Assembly (NCBI RefSeq): GCF_018132105.1
Contig: NZ_JWHL01000014.1
Coordinates: 1-64,000 of the forward strand
Direction: 5' to 3'
DNA length: 64,000 bases
Source: Methanocalculus chunghsingensis
GTDB taxonomy: Archaea > Halobacteriota > Methanomicrobia > Methanomicrobiales > Methanocorpusculaceae
Part shown: positions 55,271-64,000 of the stretch, one piece after another
Numbering within the stretch: position 1 is the first letter of the stretch
Layout: the number at the start of each line of letters is the position of its first letter
Program-made: the position numbers and the translations under genes
Notes under the pieces: generated by a model
Databases searched by the model: none
What the model saw: the letters and a program-made list of their open reading frames with translations, nothing else
What the model was told of the DNA's origin: nothing

Positions 55271-56854
55271 ATGAGAATACACACAGTAGGAATAGTCTTT
55301 GTAACTGTGAGCATACTGCTGACAGCAGGGTGTGTTGGCGGCGACCCGGCTGATCATGAGAACGTCCTCCGGATCGGAACGCCGATGGAGATAAAAAGCC
55401 AGAATGTCTTTGGAGATTATAATCTTGGTATCTTCTTCGCCCTCTCAAACCCGACACTCTCTCGGATGAACGAGAATGGTGAGATTATCGGGTATCTTGC
55501 ATCTCATTATACCGTTTCAGATGATAACCGGATCTGGACATTTTATATCGATGACTCATTCTTCTGGAGTGACGGAACACCAGTCACCCCTGAGGATGTC
55601 GCCTTCTCAATAACCACGTACGGAGAGAAGATACCATCAGCACGCTGGATCGGTGAAAACCTGGATGATATTTTGATAGGTGACAACTATGTCAGCTTTA
55701 TCTTTACCCAGCCGTACACCACCATTGATCTGGAGTTCTGCTCATACAGAATTGTTCCTGCACGAGACTGGGAGTCCATTGATGAGCCTCTCCAATATAC
55801 CAGCAGAGGACCATATACCGGATCAGGGCCCTTCTATCTGGATGATATCAATCTTCAGGCAGGAATACTCACATTCGAGAGAAACCAGCACTGGAGAGGA
55901 GAAGAGCCATCAATCGACCGTATCGAAGTTCATTCGTACAGCAACATTGACAGCGCCATGCTTGCTCTTGAACGGGGAGATGTTGATACCTTCTACCGAT
56001 ATGCTGGATCATATCCATATACCGGCATCCAGCGTCTTGAAGCAACCGGAAATTTCGATTTTATCGAGACAACAAATGTCGGGCTGATATTTCTCGGACT
56101 GAACCTGAAGAGCGCACCAACAGATGATCCGGCATTCCGTGAGGCGATCGCATATGCCATAAACTATGAAGAGATCATCCGGATCGATGCTCTCGGATAT
56201 GGAGAAGTGCCAAACCGTGGATTTGTTCCTCCATCAATGGAATTCTTCAGGGATACACCCCCCCTCTCATACAATCCGGCCCATGCAGAAGCGCTTCTTG
56301 ATGCTGCCGGATATGCGGACAAAACCGGAAACGGCTACCGGCAGGGAAAGGATGGAGAAGAAATCGGGCTTGAGATTCTTATCCGATCAGAATACGCACG
56401 TACCGGCGAGCTGATAGCCGACTATCTCAATGATATCGGGGTGAGAACAACCATCAAGACCGTGGATGCAACAACCTGGTTTACATTAAAGGATAGTTAC
56501 TCCTATGATCTGACGATTACCCGGACGACACCCTGGGGAATGTATATGCATGCAGGATATGGAACCGGGTATTTTGACAGCAGAAGGACCGGGCAGGGTG
56601 TTCTGCATTACCTTGATGACCCCCCCTTCCTTGAACTCTGTGATATGATGCGGGATACAACAGATCCCTCCCTACAGCGTGAGTACGCATGGCAGATGCA
56701 GGATTATTATGCGGAAAACCTCCCTGGAATCGCGCTCTATTGGAATAAGATTGTGACACCCTACAATACGGCATTCACCGGATGGAAGACCGATCCGCTC
56801 TATGGAATCTACAATATGGAGACATTTGTCAATATACAGAGGTCTGGTGCATGA
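55271..56854 (+). CDS. ABC importer substrate-binding lipoprotein, peptide/nickel family
   Basis: 527 residues with signal segment and lipobox LTAGC (Cys21). The body is the solute-binding protein family 5 fold: ENGEIIGYLASHYTVSDDNR, FYIDDSFFWSDGTPVTPEDVAFS, then FREAIAYAINYEEIIRIDALG. Family 5 includes OppA, DppA and NikA. The operon order (binding protein, methyltransferase, two permeases, two ATPases) fits a nickel or oligopeptide importer. Methanogens need much nickel, which favours that substrate, but a histidine or chelate site cannot be verified from the sequence. Confidence 0.92.
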   Translation: MRIHTVGIVFVTVSILLTAGCVGGDPADHENVLRIGTPMEIKSQNVFGDYNLGIFFALSNPTLSRMNENGEIIGYLASHYTVSDDNRIWTFYIDDSFFWSDGTPVTPEDVAFSITTYGEKIPSARWIGENLDDILIGDNYVSFIFTQPYTTIDLEFCSYRIVPARDWESIDEPLQYTSRGPYTGSGPFYLDDINLQAGILTFERNQHWRGEEPSIDRIEVHSYSNIDSAMLALERGDVDTFYRYAGSYPYTGIQRLEATGNFDFIETTNVGLIFLGLNLKSAPTDDPAFREAIAYAINYEEIIRIDALGYGEVPNRGFVPPSMEFFRDTPPLSYNPAHAEALLDAAGYADKTGNGYRQGKDGEEIGLEILIRSEYARTGELIADYLNDIGVRTTIKTVDATTWFTLKDSYSYDLTITRTTPWGMYMHAGYGTGYFDSRRTGQGVLHYLDDPPFLELCDMMRDTTDPSLQREYAWQMQDYYAENLPGIALYWNKIVTPYNTAFTGWKTDPLYGIYNMETFVNIQRSGA

Positions 56855-57609
56855 GTGACGAAGCCGCATGGGTTACAGCACTGAATGCATGCACCTACCA
56901 TAAAATCCTCAAGGAGCGGCAGATAAGCCATGATAAGTTCTGGCGGGAGTATGGTCTCTACGATGAGATGATCCGACACTCAGGGTATCCGGGGGAGATT
57001 GTCCCGACAATTCTCTCCCGTATTGAACCGGAATCAACCATCCTGGATATTGGTGCAGGGACAGGGGCTTTTGCAATCCCGCTTGCAGAAGCGGGCCACC
57101 ATGTCATTGCGCTTGATCCCTCGGAATATCACCTCTCCATCCTTAAAAGCAAAGGTGAATGTGAGATGATCTGTTCTCTATGGGATGAAAAAGCAGCCGG
57201 GGAGATCCCGCCTGTTGATTATACCCTCGCTGCATACAGTTTCATCGATGAAGGTATCACCAGTTTTCTCAGGCGGGCGATCAACCATGGAAAGAAAGGT
57301 TCATTCTTCATCTATCGGGCAGGAGAACGTGATCCCCTCCTTGATTTTGCAAGCGGTCCTGCCGAGCAGATAAGCTACAGGCATATCACCGCTATCCTTG
57401 AAGCCCTCGGTATTGAATACCTGCTTGATGGATTCATACGGAATTTCCATCTTCCCTTTGAACTAGCCCTGAAGCGTGCAAGGAACACACTCAGGACAGA
57501 GGAAGAGATAGTTTCATTTCTCAGGGATCATCAGCGGCTTCATATGGAGAAGGAGATACTTCAGGTTGCTTTTCGGGATGAGGATATGCTGATCACCATC
57601 AAACGATAA
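56851..57609 (+). CDS. SAM-dependent methyltransferase inside the ABC importer operon
   Basis: 252 residues from the ATG at 56851, which overlaps the binding-protein stop by ATGA. Motif I is TILDIGAGTGAFAIPLAEAG, followed by HVIALDPSEYHLSIL and VDYTLAAYSFIDEGI, a class I methyltransferase. The N-terminal ~50 residues (LNACTYHKILKERQISHDKF) are helical and may shape the substrate site. The tight coupling means it is translated with the importer, so it may modify the imported ligand, such as a metal chelator or peptide. No family is recognised beyond the fold. Confidence 0.82.
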   Translation: MSDEAAWVTALNACTYHKILKERQISHDKFWREYGLYDEMIRHSGYPGEIVPTILSRIEPESTILDIGAGTGAFAIPLAEAGHHVIALDPSEYHLSILKSKGECEMICSLWDEKAAGEIPPVDYTLAAYSFIDEGITSFLRRAINHGKKGSFFIYRAGERDPLLDFASGPAEQISYRHITAILEALGIEYLLDGFIRNFHLPFELALKRARNTLRTEEEIVSFLRDHQRLHMEKEILQVAFRDEDMLITIKR

Positions 57610-57626
57610 GGCGGGTCCTTGGGGAT

Positions 57627-58574
57627 ATGCATGCAATCATCTATCGGTGGCCGCGATACCTCATCTCCCTCTTCCTCATCATCACGTTGAATTTTGCCCT
57701 TCCGAGGATGATGCCGGGGGACCCGATAGCCAATCTGATCGGAGAGAGTGCGTACGTCTCTGAGGCGACGATTCAGGAGATCACACAATCTCTCGGACTG
57801 GATCGCCCCCTTCACGAGCAGTTCACACTCTATCTTCAGAGCCTTGCATCCCTTGATCTCGGATACTCCTATCTGCTTCATGCTGAGGTCTCTTCAATCA
57901 TCATCGAACGGATGATCTGGACGCTGGGTTTTGTTGGTATTGCCACTCTGATAGGAGTGATACTCGGTGTTCTGCTCGGTGCAGCCGCGGGAATGAACAG
58001 GTCACAGAAGAGCTCACAGCTCTGGACCTACGGATCCATAGCAATATCAAGCACGCCCCCGTACTTCCTCGGACTTATCGCCCTCTCAATCTTCTCCTTC
58101 CATTTCGGCCTCTTCCCTCTGAAGGGAGCTCCGGCAACGGGCGGTATCCTCACATGGCTTCACCACCTTGCTCTTCCCATCGCTGTCCTCGCACTCTTTA
58201 TCGCTGCACGAAATTGTCTGATCATGAGGGGGAGTGTCATACAGGAGCTTCATGAACACTATCCCCTCTATGCCAAGGCAAAAGGGCTGACCGATCGGAT
58301 GGTTTTGAGACGACATATACTTAAAAATGCATCCCTCCCGGTGATCACACAGATCGCCCTTGATATCGGGTTCATCTTTTCAGGTGCACTTTTTATTGAG
58401 ATCGTCTTCTCAATGCCGGGAATGGGGATGCTCATCTATGATGCCGTCCTCTCCCGCGACTATCCAATTCTTGAAGGATGCCTTCTTGTGATTGCGATTA
58501 TGGTTATCCTCGCAAATATTGCCGCTGATATCCTCTATGGAATCATCGATCCGAGGATCAGGAGGGGGGAATGA
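57627..58574 (+). CDS. ABC importer permease 1 (DppB/NikB-like)
   Basis: 315 residues with an N-terminal helix and the family signature LNFALPRMMPGDPIANLIGE. An extracytoplasmic loop with LGLDRPLHEQFTLYLQSLASLDLGYSYL and five further helices follow. The coupling loop YAKAKGLTDRMVLRRHILKNASLPVITQIAL contacts the ATPases. It overlaps the second permease gene by ATGA. Confidence 0.93.
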   Translation: MHAIIYRWPRYLISLFLIITLNFALPRMMPGDPIANLIGESAYVSEATIQEITQSLGLDRPLHEQFTLYLQSLASLDLGYSYLLHAEVSSIIIERMIWTLGFVGIATLIGVILGVLLGAAAGMNRSQKSSQLWTYGSIAISSTPPYFLGLIALSIFSFHFGLFPLKGAPATGGILTWLHHLALPIAVLALFIAARNCLIMRGSVIQELHEHYPLYAKAKGLTDRMVLRRHILKNASLPVITQIALDIGFIFSGALFIEIVFSMPGMGMLIYDAVLSRDYPILEGCLLVIAIMVILANIAADILYGIIDPRIRRGE

Positions 58575-59374
58575 ATCGGGCAGGTCTTATCGGGTTTGCC
58601 ATTCTCTCGATTTTTTTCCTGATGGCAGTTGCTCCATGGATCTTCGCTCCCTATGATCCATATATCCGGTTCACTCCATATGCAGAACCTGGTACTGACC
58701 ACATCCTTGGAACAAATGATATGGGCCATGATATCCTCTCTGAGCTGATATACAGTGCCCGTGCTTCCCTCTTCGTTGGTTTTGTCGCTGCAATACTTGC
58801 CACCCTCCTCGGGGTGATCATCGGTATCATCGCAGGCTACTATCGTGGGTGGATCGAAGATCTTCTGATGGGGGTAACCGACATCTTCCTGATGATCCCA
58901 AAGATTCCGATGATCATCATCATCGCAGCGTTTCTCGGATCAGGGATCTGGGTTCTGATCCTGGTGTTTGGAGCATTCTCATGGACAGCTATCGCACGGA
59001 TTGCCAGATCCAAAGTCCTTCAGATCCGGGAGAGTGGATTTGTTCTGAGTGCACGCTGCCTTGGGTTCTCCAACAGATTCATCATGGCGAGAGAGATCGC
59101 TCCAAACCTCACCCATATCGTCTTTCCTAAGTTCATGCTCCTGGCTGCATCAGCAATGATCACCGAGGCATCCATCTCCTTCATCGGACTTGGCGATCCG
59201 TCCATGAAGAGCTGGGGGGTGATGCTCTCATTTGCATTCACAAAAGGGGGACTGCTGAATGGTATGTGGTGGTGGTATATTCCACCAGGAATTGCCATCT
59301 CTGTCTGTGTCATGGCAATAGCCCTCATCGGATACTCCCGTGAGAAAGGAGCTGATATCGGGGTGAGAGGATGA
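58571..59374 (+). CDS. ABC importer permease 2 (DppC/NikC-like)
   Basis: 267 residues with about six helices. It has YAEPGTDHILGTNDMGHDILSELIYSARASLFVGF, the hallmark of DppC-type subunits, and the coupling loop RCLGFSNRFIMAREIAPNL. It starts within the previous stop and overlaps the first ATPase gene by four bases. Length is slightly short of the usual ~290. Confidence 0.93.
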   Translation: MNRAGLIGFAILSIFFLMAVAPWIFAPYDPYIRFTPYAEPGTDHILGTNDMGHDILSELIYSARASLFVGFVAAILATLLGVIIGIIAGYYRGWIEDLLMGVTDIFLMIPKIPMIIIIAAFLGSGIWVLILVFGAFSWTAIARIARSKVLQIRESGFVLSARCLGFSNRFIMAREIAPNLTHIVFPKFMLLAASAMITEASISFIGLGDPSMKSWGVMLSFAFTKGGLLNGMWWWYIPPGIAISVCVMAIALIGYSREKGADIGVRG

Positions 59375-60318
59375 GCAGGCTCCTGGATATAAAGAACCTC
59401 TCTGTTTCATTTGTTTCAGGTGAGGAGACCGTCAGGGCAGTAACAGACGTCTCATTCGATCTCTGTGAGGATGAGGTGCTGACACTTGTCGGTGAGACGG
59501 GGTGTGGCAAATCAATCATCGCTCATGCGATCTCCGGCCTCCTTCCACCTGAGGCACTTGTTTCTGGAGAAATCCGGTATAAAGAAAAGGATCTCCAGAG
59601 CATCCCTGAAGAGGAGCGTGTTCTCCTGCGGGGTTGTGAGATCGGGATTGTCCTCCAGAACCCGTCTCGTGCATTAAACCCTCTCTATACCATCGGCCAC
59701 CAGATTCGAGAGACGATCCTCCGCCATACTGAAAAGAGTAAGGAAGAGAGTAATAGAATGGTGGCTGGAGCACTCCGGCGGATGGGGTTTTCAGATCCCG
59801 GTATCGAGATGAAGAGGTATCCGTTTGAGTCATCCGGCGGGATGAACCAGAGGTTCGTCATCGCTTCCTCAACGATCCTCTCCCCGGATCTTCTGATCGC
59901 AGATGAACCAACAACAGGACTTGACCGGTCACGTATTCAGGATGTCATCACTGAGTTTGAGCGAATCATGGAAGAGGAGGAGATGGCTATCATTCTCATC
60001 ACCCATGATCTCGCGGTTGCCCGGAGACTTGCTGACCGGATAGGGATTATGTATGCAGGAGAGGTGGTCGAGATGGGGGATGCAAACCGCATCTTTGAAG
60101 AGCCGTATCATCCCTATACGAAAGGGCTCTTTGGAAGCCTGCCGGAGAACGGATGCGTTCCAATCCCGGGAGTATCACCACCAATGAGTCGTATCGTCTC
60201 TGGGTGCCGGTTCCATCCACGGTGTGGCAAAAGAACGGCAGTCTGTGAGAGAGATCATCCTCAGCTTGGTATGATTGACGATCGATATGTGAGGTGCCAC
60301 CTGTGCCACTCGCAGTAG
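59371..60318 (+). CDS. ABC importer ATPase 1 (DppD/NikD-like)
   Basis: 315 residues: Walker A GETGCGKSI, signature SSGGMNQR (a variant of LSGGQ), Walker B LLIADEPTTGLD and the switch His in ITHDLAVA. The C-terminal extension EPYHPYTKGLFGSLPE and CRFHPRCGKRTAVCERDHPQ is the oligopeptide/dipeptide transporter C-domain, whose cysteines can bind an Fe-S cluster or metal in this family. It overlaps the second ATPase gene. Confidence 0.94.
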   Translation: MSRLLDIKNLSVSFVSGEETVRAVTDVSFDLCEDEVLTLVGETGCGKSIIAHAISGLLPPEALVSGEIRYKEKDLQSIPEEERVLLRGCEIGIVLQNPSRALNPLYTIGHQIRETILRHTEKSKEESNRMVAGALRRMGFSDPGIEMKRYPFESSGGMNQRFVIASSTILSPDLLIADEPTTGLDRSRIQDVITEFERIMEEEEMAIILITHDLAVARRLADRIGIMYAGEVVEMGDANRIFEEPYHPYTKGLFGSLPENGCVPIPGVSPPMSRIVSGCRFHPRCGKRTAVCERDHPQLGMIDDRYVRCHLCHSQ

Positions 60319-61007
60319 AAAATATAGAGAAGAGCTATTTGCGCGGCCATTTCAGAAAAGTCCCGTTTGATGTACTGAAGGGAGTTTCACTGGAGATTCA
60401 GGAAGGGGAGACAGTCGGGCTGATGGGAGACTCGGGATCCGGAAAGAGTACCCTTGCGAGGATTCTCGCCGGACTTGACAGACCGACATCCGGGAGGATC
60501 CTCTACGAAGGGAGTGACATACACCGCATGAAGAGGTCCGAATTCCGATCCTATCGCCGATCCGTTCAGATGGTCTTCCAGGATCCGGCCAGTGCATTAA
60601 ACCCGATGAAGACGATCAGCCGATCCCTTGAGGATGTGGCGAGGCTTGCCGGGGTAGGGAGTGATGGCATTGAAGAGGCGATCAGGGAGATGCTCGCGGT
60701 CGGAGGTCTTGATCCCGAGGTGTTGCGACGATATCCGGACCAGATTTCCGGAGGACAAATCCAGCGGATTGCCCTTGCACGGGTACTCTTTCACAGGCCA
60801 TCCTACCTGATCCTGGATGAACCGACATCAGCACTTGATGTATCGGTGCAGGCACAGATCCTTCAGCTGCTCCGCACTATCCAGAAAGAGACAGGAATGG
60901 GGTGTCTCTTCATCTCCCATGATGAAGCGGTCGTCAGGTTCATATCAGACAGGGTTGTGAGGTTAGCAGACGGAGAGATCTCTTCAGACGAACCGCCGGG
61001 AATCTGA
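60303..61007 (+). CDS. ABC importer ATPase 2 (DppF/NikE-like)
   Basis: 235 residues from the GTG at 60303, with GAGGTG six bases upstream; a GTG at 60294 is the alternative. Walker A GDSGSGKST, signature ISGGQIQRIALAR and Walker B YLILDEPTSALD are all intact. The C-terminal oligopeptide extension is absent, as in NikE. It pairs with ATPase 1 under the two permeases. The end overlaps the convergent ThDP-enzyme gene by 24 bases. Confidence 0.93.
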   Translation: MPLAVENIEKSYLRGHFRKVPFDVLKGVSLEIQEGETVGLMGDSGSGKSTLARILAGLDRPTSGRILYEGSDIHRMKRSEFRSYRRSVQMVFQDPASALNPMKTISRSLEDVARLAGVGSDGIEEAIREMLAVGGLDPEVLRRYPDQISGGQIQRIALARVLFHRPSYLILDEPTSALDVSVQAQILQLLRTIQKETGMGCLFISHDEAVVRFISDRVVRLADGEISSDEPPGI

Positions 61008-62948
61008 GATGACATCAAGGATCACCGGTTTTTCCTGTTTCAATGCCTCTTCGAGAGCAGGGGCGAGATCCTGTGGTTCCAAAACCCGTATCCCAACCCC
61101 CCCGCAGACCTCTGCATAGGCGGCAAAGTCCGGGTTCTTCAGGTCGGTTCCGAAGTTTTCGTAATGCTCCATCAGCTGCTCGACCTGGATCATCCCGAGC
61201 TCCCGGTTATTGATGACGATCACAACCATCGGCAGGTCGTACTTCACTGCTGTGACGAAGTCGGCCATCGCCTGGGAGAAGCCTCCATCGCCGGTGATAC
61301 AGACGACCTTCTTATCAGGATACGCACATTTTGCCGCAATTGCCGCAGGGAACCCAAATCCCATCGTGCCGAGGTACCCGCTCATACAGAACCGCTGCTT
61401 CTTCATCCGGAAGTTACGTCCGAACCACCACTGGTTCTCACCGACATCAAGGGCGATGACGCAGTCATCAGGAAGCGTCTCAGAGAGGACCTGCATAATA
61501 TAGGGGGGACGAATAGGGAGAGCATCGGGATCTGCCTCACGGTTGCGTTGATCGATCCACTCCTGCTTCATACGGGCGATCTCATCGGTAAGACCCGGAC
61601 GCCGCTTCTCAGTCACCATGCCGGTTATGAGCGGGATGGTGAGCGAACAGCTCCCCCAGAGCGGTATCGTCTCCGGACCGATCCCGAGCCGGACCGGGTT
61701 GGTATCAACCTGGATGATCGGTGTCTCTGTCGGGACGTTGGTGAACTTTGAGAAGCTTACGCCATAGGTGATGATGAGATCAGCCCGCTCAACGAGGGTG
61801 CGTGCCTGCGGAGAGCCGAGCGAGCCGAGGACCCCTATCACCCGGGGATGATCCTCGGGGATGATGCCTTTGGAACGGAAGGTGGTCAGAATCGGGGCAT
61901 CGATCTTCTCAGCCTGTGCAATGATTGCGTCACCATCTGGGTATGCACCATATCCGGCCAGGATCACCGGATGCTCGGCGGCCTCAATCGCCTCTGCGGC
62001 CCGGCGAAGCGATTCATCATCGGGTGTGATTCCCGGTTCGGTGATGACGATCTCCCGCCTGCATATCGCCGGATCGAGCCGTTGTTTCTGGATATCATTT
62101 GGGACAGAGAGCTGCGCGACACCATGGCGGAGTCGGGCATACCTGACGGCACGGGTGAGGAGGAGAAGGGTCATCTTTCGATCAGAGATGGTATTATTAT
62201 AAACCGTGATCGGCCGGAAGAAGGCGTCCTGGTCGATCTCCTGCAGCCCATACTCACCGGTGTACTGGATCGAAACCTGGCCGTTAATGGAGAGAACCGA
62301 CGCTCTATCTTCTTTTGCATCATAGAGTCCGGTAGCCAGGTTGGTTGCACCCGGTCCGGCTATGGTGAGGCAGGCAGCCATCTCTCCGGTGAGCTTGTTA
62401 TAGGCTGATGCGGCCATTGCTGCCGCCGCCTCATGCCGGACAACGATATACCGCATCCGCTCATCCCGCCGGATAGCATCGACAAGACCAAGGGAGGATG
62501 TCCCCGGGAGTCCGAAGACGAGGGTAATCCCGGATGCAAGGAGTTCTTCAATAATGGCATCCGATACGGTCTTTTCGGACAGGTCATGGGTGATTGTATC
62601 CCTCCGTACCATCAGAAACGCCGATCGGGCCGCACCACAGACCGGGCATCGCCAGCTGTCATCAAGTTCGGCAAACCGGGTTTCTGCCGGAGTATCGGTC
62701 GCTGGCTCACCAGTCTCTTCATCATACCGGTAGTTGCAGACACCGCACCGCCAGATCATCGGGATGGCGGGACCTGATCGATCTTCGGAAGGGATAGCAG
62801 AAAAAGCGTCCTTTCCAGCCGCACAGACCGGGCATCGCCAGTCATGAGGAAGGAGCTGAAAGAGGGTGTGTGGATCTGTTTTGGTTGAAGGCTCACCCGT
62901 CTCCTCATCATAGATATATCCGCAGACAGAACATCGCCATTGTGACAT
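60984..62948 (-). CDS. Thiamine-diphosphate enzyme with two N-terminal rubredoxin domains
   Basis: 654 residues. Residues ~3-50 and ~65-112 are two rubredoxin domains, each with a WRCxVC pair and a WRCPVC pair (Cys6/9 with 39/42; Cys68/71 with 101/104). The rest is a pyruvate oxidase/acetolactate synthase-like ThDP enzyme. It has the FGLPGTSSLGLVDAI start, the catalytic Glu in VVRHEAAAAMAASAY, LTIAGPGATNLATGLYDA, a middle domain and the ThDP motif GDGGFSQAMADFVTAV ending VIVINN. The ATG at 62948 (or 62951) is preceded by GAGGT. The rubredoxins suggest that electrons released during oxidative decarboxylation are carried away one at a time. The substrate, such as pyruvate or another 2-oxoacid, is not known. 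Confidence 0.9.
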   Translation of the reverse strand: MSQWRCSVCGYIYDEETGEPSTKTDPHTLFQLLPHDWRCPVCAAGKDAFSAIPSEDRSGPAIPMIWRCGVCNYRYDEETGEPATDTPAETRFAELDDSWRCPVCGAARSAFLMVRRDTITHDLSEKTVSDAIIEELLASGITLVFGLPGTSSLGLVDAIRRDERMRYIVVRHEAAAAMAASAYNKLTGEMAACLTIAGPGATNLATGLYDAKEDRASVLSINGQVSIQYTGEYGLQEIDQDAFFRPITVYNNTISDRKMTLLLLTRAVRYARLRHGVAQLSVPNDIQKQRLDPAICRREIVITEPGITPDDESLRRAAEAIEAAEHPVILAGYGAYPDGDAIIAQAEKIDAPILTTFRSKGIIPEDHPRVIGVLGSLGSPQARTLVERADLIITYGVSFSKFTNVPTETPIIQVDTNPVRLGIGPETIPLWGSCSLTIPLITGMVTEKRRPGLTDEIARMKQEWIDQRNREADPDALPIRPPYIMQVLSETLPDDCVIALDVGENQWWFGRNFRMKKQRFCMSGYLGTMGFGFPAAIAAKCAYPDKKVVCITGDGGFSQAMADFVTAVKYDLPMVVIVINNRELGMIQVEQLMEHYENFGTDLKNPDFAAYAEVCGGVGIRVLEPQDLAPALEEALKQEKPVILDVISDSRRFV

Positions 62949-63056
62949 CATCAAACCTCGTATCTCTCAGATGATCTGACGAGATAATAGGTCTTGTGGA
63001 GTGGGGTGATCCGTCTCTTCCATATACCTTAAATAGAAAGAGATTGGAGATTCAGT

Positions 63057-63459: not shown

Positions 63460-63861
63460 TTACTCAGTTGTCTTCCCGTTGAAATGCTCATGGGATGCTT
63501 CAGCTTCAGCTTTTGTTGTATGGATCGTCTTATCCTGGTGTTCCGGTGGAGAGTAGATGGTATAGATTCTGAGATCGGCTGTTTGTGAGCTATTAATGAC
63601 GTTATGTTCTGCACCGGCAGGAACGATGACGGCACTTCCATCTTTGACGACGTGTTCAACACCATCGATGACAACCTTTCCCTCACCCTGCTCGAACCGG
63701 AAGAACTGGTCGATGTCGTCATGGACTTCAGATCCGATCTCCTCGCCGGGCTTTAAGCTCATCAGCACGAGCTGGCTGTACTTTCCTGTATACAGAACCC
63801 GCCGGAAATCGGTGTTCTCTACTGTGTCTTTCTCAATATCTGCTGCAAAACCTTTCTTCAT
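63460..63861 (-). CDS. Cupin-domain protein
   Basis: 133 residues from the ATG at 63861, with GGAGGAT about six bases upstream; a 15-residue longer frame has no such site. The double-stranded beta helix shows cupin motif 1, GSEVHDDIDQFFRFEQGEG, and motif 2, VIVPAGAEHNVINSS. The metal-ligand residues are His, Glu-position Gln/Phe region and His, and SPPEH near the end adds another His. Small single cupins of this type may be isomerases, dioxygenases or sugar-binding regulators. No function is assigned. Confidence 0.88.
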   Translation of the reverse strand: MKKGFAADIEKDTVENTDFRRVLYTGKYSQLVLMSLKPGEEIGSEVHDDIDQFFRFEQGEGKVVIDGVEHVVKDGSAVIVPAGAEHNVINSSQTADLRIYTIYSPPEHQDKTIHTTKAEAEASHEHFNGKTTE

Positions 63862-64000
63862 ATCTATCCTCCATACTTTCTCACGGCAGATGGCCGTTAT
63901 CACCACTTCGTCAAAGGATTATATTACTGCTTCGGAAAGGGCAATCCAGGAATACATTCACCCTCCGGGGCATGGTTTTTATTGCGCATTGGGAATATGA

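Follow-up and report, generated by a model that had tools for sequence, protein, structure and literature searches.

The closest described relatives of the protein analyzed here are the acetate-forming pyruvate oxidases (POX), namely E. coli PoxB (3EY9/3EYA), C. glutamicum PQO (9EV3-9EV6), and S. aureus CidC/PRK08611, whose electron acceptor is quinone at the membrane (PMC7245740). They adopt the same three-domain thiamine diphosphate (ThDP) fold, share the POX-type Glu and Lys, and provide the best fold and profile matches. L. plantarum pyruvate oxidase (LpPOX; 1POX, 1Y9D), an O2- and phosphate-using enzyme of the H2O2-producing type (PMC7245740), also has this fold, and the positions of its Glu59, Gln122, and Glu483 are conserved in our protein. 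However, it is devoid of the Fe-S domains present in our protein. As for pyruvate:ferredoxin oxidoreductase, the likeness is functional only (i.e., oxidation of a 2-oxoacid to an Fe-S carrier), since this enzyme belongs to another ThDP family and uses CoA and [4Fe-4S] clusters.

The gene under study lies on the minus strand at positions 60984..62948 of the window, by which we mean the whole 64,000-nucleotide stretch of Methanocalculus chunghsingensis DNA that was analyzed. It encodes a protein of 654 residues from an ATG at 62948, in which two rubredoxin (Rd) domains precede a POX-like ThDP enzyme. The same open reading frame reaches 62954 with a TTG start (60984..62954) and contains no internal stop. 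Pfam identifies Rubredoxin twice (E 3.7e-34, the best stretch being residues 3-49), followed in the same frame by TPP_enzyme N, M, and C in this order, each above cut-off like both Rd copies, which were also recovered by a whole-genome search. The first Rd domain (residues 3-49; 62802..62942, minus strand) contains Cys6, Cys9, Cys39, and Cys42, and the second (62616..62753, minus strand) contains Cys68, Cys71, Cys101, and Cys104. All eight cysteines are intact in the translation, which bears out an earlier note's description of two complete four-cysteine rubredoxins in one frame with an intact ThDP enzyme. The enzyme part, also on the minus strand, comprises TPP_enzyme_N (residues 127-241; 62226..62570), where Glu173 aligns with LpPOX Glu59, the FAD-type middle domain TPP_enzyme_M (residues 315-438; 61635..62006), where Arg358-x-Lys360 is invariant in orthologs, and TPP_enzyme_C (residues 501-646; 61011..61448), with GDGG at 553-556 and with Met586 and Glu590 at LpPOX positions 479 and 483. 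Compared to PoxB, to which it is ~29% identical, the protein has Fe-S carriers at its N terminus but no lipid-binding membrane peptide at its C terminus; in the alignment, it stops where this peptide would begin.

Nearby, a cupin-domain protein is encoded on the minus strand (63460-63876). A plus-strand run (55271-61007), coding for a solute-binding protein, two permeases, and two ABC ATPases as judged by translations alone, converges on the fusion gene and overlaps its stop by 24 bases. The neighborhood is not conserved even among close relatives and gives no clue to the substrate.

An enzyme core of the pyruvate oxidase type

Several lines of evidence concur that the enzyme part is of the pyruvate oxidase type and not an acetolactate synthase (ALS). 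Among NCBIfam models, pyruvate oxidase PRK08611 scores best (471 bits, which is below its 742-bit equivalog cut-off), and the best sequence match in the PDB is PoxB. When an AlphaFold2 model of the fusion protein (mean pLDDT 85.8) was ranked against PDB folds, the first 27 ranks were all occupied by POX, PoxB, or pyruvate:quinone oxidoreductase, AHAS appearing from rank 28. Both the fold and the middle domain resemble those of FAD enzymes. In a 63-protein tree, ALS and Gcl are split from all POX with support 100/100, the window protein falling on the POX side; PoxB, LpPOX, and Gcl sit on long branches, so that placement in finer detail is uncertain. At the residue level, alignment of 67 orthologs shows no variation at Glu173, Gln236, and Glu590, which occupy the positions of LpPOX Glu59, Gln122, and Glu483, or at Lys360. 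Glu590 and Lys360 are found in all POX compared, whereas the three ALS compared have Trp/Gln and Ile/Leu, respectively, at these positions. Moreover, the genome encodes a separate ALS elsewhere (at C51).

We therefore regard it as highly improbable that the protein is a plain ALS with nonfunctional rubredoxins, one of the cases that the earlier note had named as fatal to its proposal. In NCBIfam, the scores of some ALS families do come close to those of some POX families, and the protein is roughly as similar to E. coli IlvB as to PoxB (28-29% identity). However, the tree, the PDB folds, the residues at 590 and 360, and the separate ALS all contradict this reading, as does the integrity of the eight cysteines, and it is largely refuted.

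Two positions depart from the characterized enzymes. The position of LpPOX Phe479, whose PoxB counterpart Phe465 aids electron transfer from ThDP to FAD (PMC7245740), is occupied by Met in 67/67 orthologs. The same substitution occurs in an annotated Pseudalkalibacillus POX and in two ALS sequences. The position of LpPOX Phe121 is variable among orthologs, so that pyruvate is a candidate substrate only.

Rubredoxin variants and a Rieske sister clade

A scan of named genomes returned 79 loci, mostly whole- or core-protein orthologs in Methanomicrobiales; Thermoplasmata and Methanomassiliicoccaceae contributed some of them. At E <= 1e-100, the gene is present in 83 of the 150 genomes sampled from the order, and in 64/108 when good-quality genomes are considered; none of the sister-genus genomes listed has it. 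Since the same contiguous architecture recurs in orthologs from other species, a chance arrangement or an artifact of sequencing error or frameshift is excluded. This recurrence across archaea had been proposed as a check in the earlier note, and it comes with a variable number of Rd. Methanocalculus and some others have two fused Rd, while Methanoregula, Methanospirillum, and Methanomassiliicoccaceae have one. Single-Rd versions, about which the note had asked, are thus common among genomes, although we found no paper describing an Rd-POX fusion, including the single-Rd form, in the open-licence literature. In Methanoculleus, including the isolate genomes with loci L051, L060, and L066, the Rd has a gene of its own upstream, which overlaps the beginning of the enzyme gene. 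No Rd was found, either fused in frame or in the 900 bp upstream, in several Thermoplasmata, in Methanofollis, and at L048/L052, which implies that the Rd is not indispensable everywhere. Matches in Rhizobium (H8) and R. binae (H18), long at first sight, were rejected because no Rd was shown. Given the many orthologs with a single Rd, an unfused Rd gene, or no Rd at all, the suggestion that two domains allow two-electron storage is unsupported as a requirement. Judging from these sequences, the double Rd is a lineage variant, and two copies would not be required.

What is new here is a sister clade of the Rd-bearing group (support 100/99 in the 63-protein tree), in which a Rieske [2Fe-2S] domain is fused at the same N-terminal position as the Rd. 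The closest matches in a plasmid collection were haloarchaeal genes and one gene from a Mycobacteroides plasmid, with 38-41% identity. The members of this clade (L099, L100, L101, L109, and L110) are annotated only as thiamine pyrophosphate-binding protein. Their N-terminal extension is identified as Rieske by Pfam in the first three, and the same Rieske sequence motif is seen in L109 and L110. Unlike the Rd-POX orthologs, which have Met at the LpPOX Phe479 position, Rieske-POX members have Lys. On the Mycobacteroides plasmid, the Rieske-POX gene is immediately preceded by a DUF4331 family gene (L099:2796-3809).

The presence of Rd in anaerobes and Rieske in aerobes, on the same end of the same core, is the strongest argument that the rubredoxins would be the electron carriers of the enzyme. 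It suggests that the electron outlet of the core has been swapped to suit host chemistry.

Proposed electron flow and candidate acceptors

These findings make it probable, in our opinion, that the gene product is a soluble POX-type 2-oxoacid:rubredoxin oxidoreductase in which electrons travel from ThDP to FAD to Rd. A 2-oxoacid, for which pyruvate is the leading guess, would be decarboxylated on ThDP, and two electrons would move to the FAD of the middle domain. They would then exit singly via the N-terminal rubredoxin(s), from which other proteins that use rubredoxin in the anaerobic cell would take them up, and the reaction would release a free acid (acetate if from pyruvate). We infer that FAD occupies the middle domain, that iron fills the Rd sites, and that electrons flow outward in this direction. 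The earlier note had likewise envisaged an oxidative decarboxylase unloading electrons into a rubredoxin-linked chain, as opposed to oxygen, CoA-ferredoxin, or carboligation. The POX-type core speaks for this part of its proposal, and a one-electron Fe-S module that persists across the order and gives way to Rieske in a sister clade fits electron unloading into such a carrier; two-Rd storage as a requirement was not supported. Against our reading, we count Met at the Phe479 position, the variable Phe121 position, the score of 471 vs. 742 bits, the Rd-free orthologs, and the unconserved neighborhood.

Some of these points would also suit a carboligase or a simple decarboxylase with a structural FAD, whose rubredoxins would sense redox state or play a structural part instead of letting electrons out. 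ALS and Gcl, which share the fold, hold FAD without net redox. The Met found in two ALS sequences at the Met586 position, the variability at the Phe121 position, and the orthologs that lack Rd are in keeping with this possibility. Yet we consider it unlikely in view of the tree, the POX-type Glu590/Lys360, and the separate genomic ALS. Moreover, if the rubredoxins carried no electrons, it would be difficult to see why the sister clade should have a Rieske domain in their place.

If the protein is an oxidoreductase, as we favor, the window genome offers candidate electron sinks. A flavodiiron-like protein is encoded immediately downstream of an Rd gene (L006:304-1752; G000 C33), and rubrerythrin matches are present; from sequence, this Rd beside the flavodiiron-like protein and the rubrerythrin are possible acceptors. 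The same genome encodes a separate tandem rubredoxin protein of 124 residues (L001:1294-1665; G000 C13). The Rd could even be reduced specifically for the flavodiiron protein or rubrerythrin, the 2-oxoacid paying for the removal of O2 or peroxide, which is a special case of our main explanation and for which the Rd gene and rubrerythrin matches just mentioned speak. We find such a dedicated role quite improbable because the flavodiiron and rubrerythrin genes are physically unlinked to the window gene, and because the sister clade combines an aerobic life with a Rieske carrier.

GltB-like proteins and a possible rewiring of the core

Another candidate partner is a GltB-like FMN protein whose gene adjoins the Rd-POX gene in Methanoregula (L017, L018, and L074) and Methanomassiliicoccaceae (L047 and L065). 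This protein has an N-terminal rubredoxin at L017, L074, and L047, the L018 copy being cut by the contig end. In Salinirubellus, a GltB-like protein with a Rieske domain is encoded near its Rieske-POX. Among 393 genomes of the phylum, Rieske-POX occurs in four and Rieske-GltB in five, all four being within the five (hypergeometric p 5e-9, uncorrected for kinship). In genome G423, the two genes are neighbors on the same strand, separated by 114 bp; in G303 and G269, ~3 kb lies between them. Within the methanogen order, the association between Rd-POX and GltB-like proteins is weak (29/37 vs. 54/113 genomes; Fisher p 0.001, uncorrected for relatedness), and some of the GltB-like matches counted lack the Rd part. 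A fusion of two rubredoxin domains with a GltB-like (Glu_synthase) domain occurs in a Victivallales bacterium (L082:3396-4943).

In the window's own genome, a search for an Rd-GltB partner gave no match at E <= 1e-100, and the only strong Glu_synthase match has a ferredoxin-like N terminus rather than an Rd. Rd-GltB was thus rejected as the acceptor in this genome, which must use a different one. As a tentative proposal, the POX-type 2-oxoacid oxidase and the GltB-like FMN enzyme might form a two-enzyme redox system with interchangeable wiring, in which matched carriers (Rd/Rd in anaerobic methanogens and Rieske/Rieske in aerobic haloarchaea) are exchanged as a set, and the oxidation of one substrate drives the reduction of another. 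Typical rubredoxin potentials lie near 0 mV, which makes it uncertain whether the two could pair as donor and acceptor.

Known pyruvate oxidases pass their electrons to O2 or membrane quinones, from which a soluble rubredoxin-linked form would differ. If our reading is true, the existence of an Rd form and of a sister clade with Rieske at the same site would mean that one enzyme core has been rewired to host electron chemistry, an idea made directly testable by the natural forms with two Rd, one Rd, a separate Rd, no Rd, or Rieske. Many hydrogenotrophic methanogens would then gain a CoA-independent oxidation of 2-oxoacids, which lies outside the textbook scheme.
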